Shown here: piece after piece, positions 699 through 27,290 of the stretch | Numbering within the stretch: position 1 is the first letter of the stretch | Layout: every line of letters begins with the position of its first letter | NCBI GenBank assembly: GCA_016765075.1 | Contig: JAESQP010000010.1 | Coordinates: 1-32,456 of the forward strand | DNA from: Gammaproteobacteria bacterium | GTDB lineage: Bacteria > Pseudomonadota > Gammaproteobacteria > GCA-2400775 | Direction: 5' to 3' | Length of the DNA: 32,456 nucleotides | The notes under the pieces: generated by a model | The model's input: the letters and a program-made list of their open reading frames with translations, nothing else | What the model was told of the DNA's origin: nothing | Database searches by the model: none | Program-made: the position numbers and the translations under genes

Positions 699-786
699 TG
701 GCGGAGAGGGAGGGATTCGAACCCCCGGAAGGTTGCCCTTCAACGGTTTTCAAGACCGCCGCTTTCGACCACTCAGCCACCTCTCC
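699..786 (-). tRNA. tRNA-Ser (anticodon UGA)
   Basis: This is an 88-nt class II tRNA. The acceptor stem GGAGAGG pairs with CCTCTCC, followed by discriminator G and an encoded CCA. The anticodon loop CTTGAAA gives UGA, reading UCA and related serine codons. A long variable arm is present, as expected for tRNA-Ser, and the T-arm contains GGTTCGAATCC. Two terminator-like hairpins and a partial copy of its 3' end follow on the same strand. Confidence 0.95.
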
Positions 787-3173: not shown

Positions 3174-4493
<1,320 letters not shown>

Positions 4494-4511
4494 TTATAAG
4501 TTAGCGTACTG

Positions 4512-4775
4512 GTGCTCTATTAATGTGATAATTACGAATTCAGCGTTGCTGTGGGGTTTCGCAGCAAGGCGCAGTGCGAAGGCAAGGGTTGTGCCCTTGT
4601 CGAGCACTGCAACGCAGCGGCGAAACCCCACAGCAACGCCCTTCGGGTTAGCGTGTCAATACCCACGGACTGCGTTACGCCTCTTGATAAGGGAGCCACC
4701 CTTATCTGCAAGACGCGCCTTGCCGTGGGCATTGACAAGCTAACTGAACTCGCAATTATCACATTAATAGAACAC
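4512..4775. repeat. Element A: nested inverted repeat with two hairpin arms and a CCTTCGG linker
   Basis: The outer stem is a 32-bp near-perfect inverted repeat (4512-4543 with 4744-4775). Inside it, arm 1 is a perfect 20-bp stem (4543-4562 with 4620-4639). The 7-nt linker CCTTCGG (4640-4646) leads to arm 2, a 22-bp near-perfect stem (4647-4668 with 4723-4744). The loops contain further small hairpins, for example CAAGGG/CCCTTG. Arm 1 holds AAGGCG and CAACGCAG; arm 2 holds their reverse complements CTGCGTT and CGCCTTG, so the two arms are inverted relatives. The right outer arm contains the last codons and the stop of crcB. The element fills most of the crcB-serS gap. It has the same layout as element B at 28788-29079. 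Confidence 0.85.
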
Positions 4776-5138
4776 TAGACGCGCGACGAAAAACCCTAGC
4801 CATGCTGCAGCAATACAGGTGACGACACTGATAATGCTGTTTAACCCAGCTTTAGCCAATTCACCTGCTTCCAATAAATGCACTGTCTCCAGCGAAAATG
4901 TAGAGAAGGTGGTGAAAGAACCCAGCAGCCCTACCAAAATAAAGCCACGCATCACACTGTCCAAAGCCAGTTTTTCCATCAGAATTATATATACGATACC
5001 AGCCATCAACGAACCAATGACATTAACGAGTAAAGTGCCATAAGGGAAGCCTGTACCCCACATCTGCACCCAGCCAAGCAAAACATAACGTAGCACCGCA
5101 CCTAAAGCGCCACCTATAGCAATCGCGACGATCATCAT
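4764..5138 (-). CDS. crcB: Fluoride channel CrcB/Fluc
   Basis: This is a 124-residue protein with four membrane segments, the usual size of Fluc subunits. Family motifs are GGALGAVLRYVLL near the N-terminus, GTLLVNVIGSL (with the pore Asn) and GLLGSFTTFSTFSLE. Fluc works as an antiparallel dimer that exports F-. The gene starts 13 bp after rarA in the same operon. No crcB riboswitch is possible directly upstream because rarA coding sequence is there. The final three codons and stop lie in the outer arm of repeat element A. Two adjacent ATG codons (5138 and 5135) could both serve as start. Confidence 0.95.
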   Translation of the reverse strand: MMIVAIAIGGALGAVLRYVLLGWVQMWGTGFPYGTLLVNVIGSLMAGIVYIILMEKLALDSVMRGFILVGLLGSFTTFSTFSLETVHLLEAGELAKAGLNSIISVVTCIAAAWLGFFVARLVFY

Positions 5139-16347: not shown

Positions 16348-16539
16348 ATGGTTAGCAAACCTATGTGCGAATTAAAAAATATTGGTAAAACTGTGTCTAC
16401 TCGACTACACGGAATTGGCATTACTAATGAAGTTAAATTGAAAAGGTTGGGGGCAGAAAAAGCCAAACCAATATTTTCAGAGGCAAATTCGAACAAATTC
16501 GGGGTCAAACAAATTCGGGGTCTACCATTGGATTTGTAA
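16348..16539 (+). pseudogene. Truncated TfoX C-terminal-domain protein
   Basis: The first 40 or so of 63 residues read ELKNIGKTVSTRLHGIGITNEVKLKRLGAEKAKPIF, which matches the helix-hairpin-helix-like TfoX C-terminal domain found as a stand-alone protein. The usual following segment (LPVCYYLYSL-like) is missing; the frame instead enters AAATTCGGGGTC repeats and stops. The ATG at 16348 is only 24 bp after the attC crossover point, so this may be the gene of a second cassette, destroyed by the repeat array. Confidence 0.55.
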
Positions 16540-16618
16540 GTGACAAGAGCGCTATTAAAGGATAAAGTCATCAAAATTCGGGGTCCAAAATTCGGGGTCA
16601 GGGGCAAAATTCGGGGTC
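16495..16618 (+). repeat. Five direct copies of AAATTCGGGGTC
   Basis: Copies are at 16495-16506, 16511-16522, 16574-16585, 16588-16599 and 16607-16618. The same motif occurs near REP/RAYT-type transposase genes in other gammaproteobacteria, to my recollection. No transposase is present here. The array interrupts the TfoX-like reading frame. Confidence 0.85.
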
Positions 16619-16676
16619 AGGTCTTTGATTTATGATTGCTATTTTGTTAGAGGCCATAAATCAAAGACCTGACTCC
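16613..16676. repeat. 22-bp inverted repeat closing the GGGGTC array
   Basis: GGGGTCAGGTCTTTGATTTATG (split here as GGGGTCAG at 16613-16620 plus GTCTTTGATTTATG) is mirrored at 16655-16676 with one mismatch, with a 20-nt loop. It could fold as a single hairpin and may be the end of a small non-autonomous element, or act as a terminator-like structure. Confidence 0.8.
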
Positions 16677-25832: not shown

Positions 25833-26219
25833 GAGACTATTTTTACCTACGTTATATAAAATATTTTAGTGTGAAAATTCGATATTTAGGCAACTTCGCC
25901 AATACCAAGCTCATCGCCCTGTGTTATCGCAAGGCCACTGGAACTCCACTCGAGTCAGGTTGAATGTACACGCATGAAATTGTGACTTCCTAACAATATT
26001 CTAACAAATATAAGAATCATAGGCCAGTAAAGAGCGATTCTATGTGTACTTACGGGCTCTGTCTTACAGGCGAGCCCAGGATCACCAACAGTAGGCGCTT
26101 TAGGCGAGGCATCATTACCAAGGCATGCTGGTTGCACGTCGAGGAATGATAACGCTGAGCCTGGGCTCGTCTGTAAGTTTCACAGAGATTGTAAGTACAC
26201 ATAGAACCGCCCTTGAGTC
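25833..26219. other. Gap dominated by a nested palindrome
   Basis: No gene is seen. The left 200 bp is featureless A+T-rich sequence that should contain the AP2-like gene promoter. The right part is element C. Confidence 0.6.
26034..26210. repeat. Element C: nested inverted repeat
   Basis: The outer arms match at 19 of 20 positions (26034-26053 with 26191-26210). CTCTGT pairs with ACAGAG inside them, and a second 18-bp pair with one mismatch lies at 26063-26080 with 26160-26177. The remaining 79-nt centre contains AACAGTAGGCGCTTTAGGCGAGGC (here split as AACAGTAGGC and GCTTTAGGCGAGGC), also found in degenerate form in element D. The right arm ends 9 bp before the stop of the next minus-strand gene. 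It lacks the CCTTCGG linker and two-arm layout of elements A and B. Confidence 0.8.
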
Positions 26220-27113: not shown

Positions 27114-27118
27114 CTAGC

Positions 27119-27290
27119 GCTCTATTCATGTAATAATTACGGGTTCAGCGTTGCCACCCCATCGGGTCGGGCACTAACAGTAGGCCGCTTTAGGCGGGGC
27201 GCGAGGAGAAAATTTAGTGGCTCTAAATAAACAACGAGCTAGGCACCCTTGGGGTACAACCCGAAGCGACGGCGATGATCGCTGCTATGT
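27119..27290. repeat. Element D: degenerate mosaic relative of elements A, B and C
   Basis: 27119-27155 matches the left end of element A (4514-4550) in 32 of 37 bases. 27176-27200 is close to the element C core at 26087-26110. About 27196-27238 resembles the reverse complement of 28954-28996 in element B, and CCCTTGGGGTACAA (27246-27259) is an exact reverse-complement match to 28997-29010. An ACCCGAAG follows. No full outer inverted repeat is left. It sits directly after the SnoaL-like gene and upstream of the vWA gene. Confidence 0.55.

Follow-up and report, generated by a model that had tools for sequence, protein, structure and literature searches.

A MITE-like element with two inverted hairpin arms and terminal inverted repeats between crcB and serS of a gammaproteobacterium

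The window analysed here is a stretch of 32,456 nucleotides from a gammaproteobacterium (contig JAESQP010000010.1, assembly GCA_016765075.1), in which crcB and serS form a tandem pair on the minus strand with a 264-bp folded repeat, element A, between them (Table 1). An earlier note on this DNA had observed that the outer arm of the repeat ends inside the coding sequence of crcB; the element now supplies the last codons of that gene together with its stop (L V F Y stop). The CrcB C-terminus reads ...RLVFY in the window, ...RAWYGNL in the congener G002 and ...RIWFRAL in the congener G003. In both congeners serS adjoins crcB with no element between, providing the empty sites that the note had proposed to look for in relatives. 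The old crcB tail lies on the far side of A and is homologous to the G002 and G003 ends. Because the congener sites are empty, the present end of crcB belongs to the element and the former tail persists as a relic, A landed in the 3' end of crcB. The empty sites are diverged, so that a duplication at A itself cannot be read from them.

Table 1 Coordinates of element A with its parts and neighbours, and of the other copies in the window
Feature	Position	Strand	Basis or remark
serS, next gene downstream of element A	3174..4463	-	Pfam Seryl_tRNA_N and tRNA-synt_2b
Relic of the old crcB 3' end, TAC GCT AAC TTA TAA (Y A N L stop)	4494..4508	-	Homology to intact crcB ends
Left target-site dinucleotide TG, read as decayed TA	4510..4511	.	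Family rule TA; sequence
Element A, complete two-arm MITE-like copy	4512..4775	.	264 bp; folds, related copies, empty sites
Left terminal inverted repeat, half of the outer stem	4512..4541	+	Repeats, fold
Arm 1, ~20-bp stem bearing the core hairpin AAGGCG...CAACGC	4543..4639	+	Repeats, fold, model R1
Linker CCCTTCGGG, mini-hairpin at the junction between the arms	4639..4647	.	Fold
Arm 2, inverted relative of arm 1	4647..4744	-	Model R1
Right terminal inverted repeat, half of the outer stem	4746..4775	-	Repeats, fold
crcB	4764..5138	-	Pfam CRCB, E 1e-27
Right target-site dinucleotide TA, within CTAG 4775-4778	4776..4777	.	Sequence; family rule
One-arm relative, single long hairpin with diverged core	26030..26214	+	Model R1; fold z -8.2; left TA 26028-26029
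Decayed copy; scrambled remnants of the arms follow an A-type left terminal repeat	27114..27290	+	Right end uncertain
Element B, second complete copy, two-armed, terminal repeat unlike that of A	28788..29080	.	Model R1, sequence, repeats

Element A folds over its whole length. The outer arms (4509-4543 and 4744-4778) are 89% complementary across 35 nt, and the stem of arm 1 (4543-4565 and 4617-4639) shows 96% complementarity. The folding energy was -168.8 kcal/mol as RNA (z -13.6) and -98.8 as DNA (z -13.3), and no shuffled sequence reached either value. With G4512 paired to C4775 and z about -13 in both forms, the extent 4512-4775 given in the earlier note is exact to the base. That note had also described an exact three-way junction; the outer stem and the two long arms were recovered, but the outer stem is imperfect and the junction holds the mini-hairpin of the linker, CCCTTCGGG; a CCCNNNGGG linker is found again in other copies and in other species. 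As had been claimed, each arm is an inverted relative of the other, for one covariance model (R1) matches both on opposite strands: arm 1 at 4557-4625 on the plus strand (74.9 bits, E 2e-18) and arm 2 at 4662-4730 on the minus strand (61.4 bits, E 1e-14). There is no ORF of at least 100 aa inside the 264 bp, and an Rfam search of the window returned tRNA only, with no match above the gathering score for the element.

The window carries other members of the family. Element B is flanked by TA on both sides (28786-28787 and 29081-29082), and R1 matches its arms at 28833-28901 on the plus strand (59.2 bits) and 28939-29007 on the minus strand (44.3 bits). It lies within the TAG stop codon of the ORF 28027-28788; the stop survives because the TA is duplicated and the element starts with G. 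Through CTAG targeting, the 3' ends of genes may be tolerant insertion sites. The one-arm relative matches R1 at 26099-26165 on the plus strand (30.1 bits, E 4e-6), and the decayed copy is 85% identical to 4509-4549 over 41 nt, with no significant arm match by R1 (6.8 bits). Also in the window, two direct repeats of 53 nt (81%) that contain inverted repeats lie at 496-717, near a tRNA gene (702-786, minus strand), and a cluster of AAATTCGGGGTC repeats at 16488-16676 has an inverted pair, GGGGTCAGGTCTTTGATTTATG and CATAAATCAAAGACCTGACTCC, which recalls the GGGGWSAS terminal repeats of Y1 (RAYT-like, TIRYT) genes (PMC3733652).

Copies are abundant elsewhere. The same genome has a second copy of the A type (contig C106, ~90% identical), and the genome G001 has one at 85%. 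The 2.0-Mb genome of the window has ~48 arms; a pattern of the arm motif gives 55 matches there, many of which are paired inverted arms inside an outer stem, whereas the reversed control gives 6. Several contigs of the assembly terminate in a copy. The element is present in roughly a third of the sampled proteobacterial genomes: the arm model has matches in 37 of the 114 genomes examined from the class and, in a sample of the phylum, in 32 of 100. A pattern scan of GTDB returned at least 120 stretches; among the matches listed, most are from beta- and gammaproteobacteria, including Pseudomonas, Azotobacter, Serratia, Vibrio, Delftia, Acidovorax, Halomonas and further genera, and Streptomyces and MAGs assigned to other phyla are represented by single matches. 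Viral contigs gave 18 pattern matches, and the E. coli chromosomes searched with the Intestinirhabdus element gave none. In the genome G149, where the arm model finds 112 arms, 28 pairs are in plus/minus order, and in 24 of these the arms are 104-105 nt apart; a one-arm form of ~166 bp occurs as well. In the complete genome G201, many near-identical copies look like recent activity, and copies from two distinct element families adjoin there with one end in common (L293, L294). Loci from Streptomyces and Kitasatospora (L057, L082, L115, L157) score weakly to moderately with the arm model (27-37 bits); the genome of L157 has another copy close to an IS5 gene (L252).

To see what is kept in the interior, we used an alignment of 70 arms from many genera (A2). 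Because AAGGCG and CAACGC were part of the pattern that selected its rows, the invariance of the AAGGC/AACGC letters is built in, whereas the covariation of the stems is not. In the three helices, 79.3% of cells are paired compared with 48.7% when partners are shuffled, doubly changed cells number 537 against 206 in shuffles, and the covariation score is 0.713 against 0.196; the signal is specific to the register and is lost on sliding. Element A compared with relatives at 70-85% identity likewise shows 10-19 compensated and 5-10 broken pairs. Orthologous copies in three Pseudomonas species are too alike to show upkeep of the structure after insertion. The interior is thus kept as a structure, in which covarying stems of free sequence surround a fixed internal loop, AAGGC/AACGC, and each arm keeps a single strand orientation.

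The mismatches that remain in the stems carry a strand preference. Read on the AAGGCG...CAACGC strand, G.T outnumbers A.C by 65 to 8 at stem positions 2-7, those closest to the core, and by 52 to 17 in the inner stem, while the outer part of the arm stem has no bias (45 to 38); these counts are drawn from related copies, whose kinship makes p-values too small. Since G.T on one strand is A.C on the other, the bias means that one particular folded strand is kept near the core, and it suggests selection on a folded strand, either RNA or single-stranded DNA, and not on mere duplex DNA.

This strand-specific wobble is compatible with an RNA role of the arms but no proof of it; the earlier note had offered a transcript-processing or attenuation device as an alternative. 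It is possible, at clearly less than even odds, that the interior is kept mainly because read-through RNA folds, which would make insertions in operons or at 3' ends tolerable or let them be processed; the same has been proposed for ERIC and Correia repeats. The G.U-type bias near the core fits such a role, as do the positions of A in the crcB-serS pair and of B at a stop codon, and ERIC is known to alter mRNA stability in an orientation-dependent manner (review PMC2229807). On the other hand, the one-arm elements of G149 in tandem contexts are antisense to both neighbour genes in 15 cases and sense in 5 (p ~0.04, with a small sample and crude ORF calls), which is the opposite of the simplest expectation. 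We consider it somewhat less probable again that the upkeep is purely mutational, the core reflecting ancestry only. Perfect outer stems would require no selection if template switching at hairpins during replication maintained the long inverted repeats together with their covariation; the unbiased outer arm stem agrees with this, and so do the 55-bp deletion forms consisting of terminal repeats only. Such upkeep accounts poorly for the fact that, across classes, the stems are wholly replaced while core, inner stem and spacing (104-105 nt) persist, and for the strand-biased wobble beside the core.

How the element inserts can be read from filled and empty sites. In many copies the ends follow the consensus YTA-G...C-TAR. 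A site just upstream of an lptF-like gene is filled in two Pseudomonas species as CCC TA [GGGGGCG...CGCCCCC] TA GGTTG and reads CCCTCGGTTG in an empty relative with 96% identical flanks; a second Pseudomonas locus reads GCCCTAGGCGCC when empty. These comparisons show that the element inserts at the TA inside CTAG and that the TA is duplicated. For a Variovorax copy, the two flanks form a single open frame when they are joined with one TA removed. An IS630 (L194, 320-1505) on a plasmid of Azotobacter chroococcum sits in the CTAG at the end of a copy, as element ends offer a CTAG target. This IS630 was considered as a mobiliser and rejected, being itself an insertion into the terminal CTAG of the element.

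A search for an autonomous copy with the terminal-repeat pattern in six genomes returned mostly pairs ~268 bp apart, together with the 55-bp forms and an IS5 in Halomonas. The 55-bp forms are two terminal repeats with the arms deleted, for example in Azotobacter (L212, ~1501). Halomonas sp. M20 has eight terminal-repeat matches per strand; most belong to element pairs, and one belongs to an 860-bp IS with an IS5-family transposase (NF033580, E 1.6e-81). In four other genomes, an IS5-family IS bears the terminal repeat of the local element at both ends, 854-888 bp apart. Against a baseline of ~22-26 of 32 letters for most unrelated pairs, the repeats of IS and element agree at 32/32 and 29/32 letters for two IS copies in Vibrio salinus, 31/32 in Halomonas, 30/32 in Stutzerimonas stutzeri and 27/32 in Comamonas composti, and the Vibrio IS repeats are closer to the Vibrio element than to the Halomonas-type repeat. 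A PF13340-type transposase is present in 16 of 35 element-bearing or related genomes, and in only about half of the element-bearing ones tested. In the genome of the window, profile searches with DDE_Tnp_1 and DDE_3 found no intact IS5 or IS630 transposase, and a DUF4096 search found one damaged IS5 N-terminal fragment, the surroundings of which do not match the local terminal repeats; the mobiliser may have been lost from this assembly of 163 contigs. An IS5-type mobiliser is well supported in other genomes, and for A in its own genome we infer it.

The element has the characters of a MITE, being non-coding and below ~500 bp, with terminal inverted repeats, a TA duplication and many dispersed copies. 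With the IS5-family IS (NF033580 type) it shares a ~18-bp terminal repeat, identical or nearly so, and the CTAG/TA target, whereas arms are absent from the IS, and the element, which lacks a gene, has a conserved interior that bears no relation to the IS. The copies, the empty sites at crcB-serS and in Pseudomonas and the duplication show that it is mobile, and the shared IS-type repeats point to movement in trans; the non-autonomous mobile element proposed in the earlier note is thus borne out. We conclude, with a probability of about 0.8, that it is a non-autonomous transposable element (MITE) of ~265 bp, made of two inverted half-units that each consist of a terminal repeat and a hairpin arm, and moved in trans by an IS5-type DDE transposase. 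The transposase would bind the terminal repeats, excise or copy the double-stranded element and join it to a new TA. With lower confidence, the core of the arm may be where a host or transposition factor recognises a folded single strand, either RNA or single-stranded DNA, and the two inverted copies of the core would present a correctly oriented arm whichever strand is read. A recognition site read in this form is our best guess for the function of the arms.

The earlier note had suggested, as one possibility, movement as folded single-stranded DNA. The TA duplication in CTAG and the terminal repeats common to IS5-family IS argue instead for a double-strand route by a DDE enzyme, making it very improbable that a Y1/HUH transposase of the REP/RAYT or IS200/IS605 type moves the element with the arms as its hairpins. 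The genome does have two RAYT-type Y1 transposase genes (L051, G000:C135; L052, G000:C67), and the bias for a folded strand and the paired inverted hairpins recall REPINs; yet no copy among the fetched loci has a Y1 gene between its ends, and the two genes were not seen linked to the element. REP/REPIN sequences with RAYT are also high-copy inverted pairs of conserved hairpins, but they are 20-40 bp palindromes with a GTAG tag and without a long terminal repeat (PMC3733652). When this tag was sought in the element the result was negative, AAGGC/AACGC lying inside ~20-bp stems flanked by TA/CTAG; in the absence of a GTAG-type tag beside a 20-40 bp palindrome, identity with REP/REPIN was rejected, and the same absence speaks against a Y1 enzyme. 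Finally, an ordinary local structure that belongs to the crcB-serS operon itself, such as an attenuator or a terminator, for which very stable hairpins between two genes might be taken, is refuted by the empty congener sites, the many copies elsewhere and the interrupted crcB; the earlier note had reasoned that a local structure would show the same stem at the same locus in relatives and nowhere else in their genomes, and the opposite was found.

Among known kinds, the nearest in form is ERIC (IRU, RU-1), a non-coding repeat of 127 bp with TA termini, target duplication and an RNA fold over its whole length (PMC2229807). All of these properties except the length are common to both, and ERIC resembles the one-arm members found here; it differs in having one arm, ~60 nt between the motifs against 38 nt in the element, and the terminal repeat TATACCC, and no IS matching it is reported in the review (PMC2229807). 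Both AAGGCG and CAACGC occur exactly, in a like-placed internal loop of the single hairpin, in 11 of 30 ERIC copies, and the others often have TAGGCG with AACAACGC. A motif score of 11-12 of 12 is reached by 15 of the 30 copies and by 12 of 3000 shuffles (0.4%) in this post hoc comparison, while R1 gave no significant match on 13 ERIC-bearing loci. A kinship of ERIC with the element, as the motifs may suggest, is unproven. We raise as a tentative idea, which we regard as doubtful, that the arm core is an ancient selfish module (two-arm, one-arm and perhaps ERIC) that successively took up the terminal repeats of different IS5-type IS and spread among proteobacteria, and now and then outside them, because its folded single strand recruits a conserved cellular or transposition factor.

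Other repeats are more distant. RUP of Streptococcus pneumoniae is likewise a MITE with TA insertion and repeats like those of the resident IS630-Spn1 (PMC2229807), but it is 107 bp long, confined to one species and has no described conserved folded core. The Correia/NEMIS repeats of Neisseria are also flanked by TA and fold as RNA, but they are ~107-155 bp and lack a two-arm core (PMC2229807). CIR, the CcrM-associated intergenic repeats of Caulobacter, form a two-arm RNA joined by a linker (PMC2229807); unlike the element they are alphaproteobacterial, show no 5'-3' end pairing and hence no outer stem, and carry a GANTC motif. The R178/R200 repeats of P. fluorescens are known to us by description only, as the text gives no sequences (PMC2718517). 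We found no description of the element family in the open-access papers searched.

Bacterial MITEs are usually viewed as defunct IS termini that enclose meaningless sequence. In this family it is the enclosed part that is conserved: a structured core persists across classes, and by pattern matches into other phyla, whereas both the stems and the terminal repeats change. The new feature is this interior, with its paired inverted hairpins around an AAGGC/AACGC loop, free stem sequences and strong covariation. Our analysis supplies a likely mobiliser for a repeat family at whose copies assemblies break, together with a possible relative of ERIC, and it makes testable whether a working RNA or DNA device is part of such elements.
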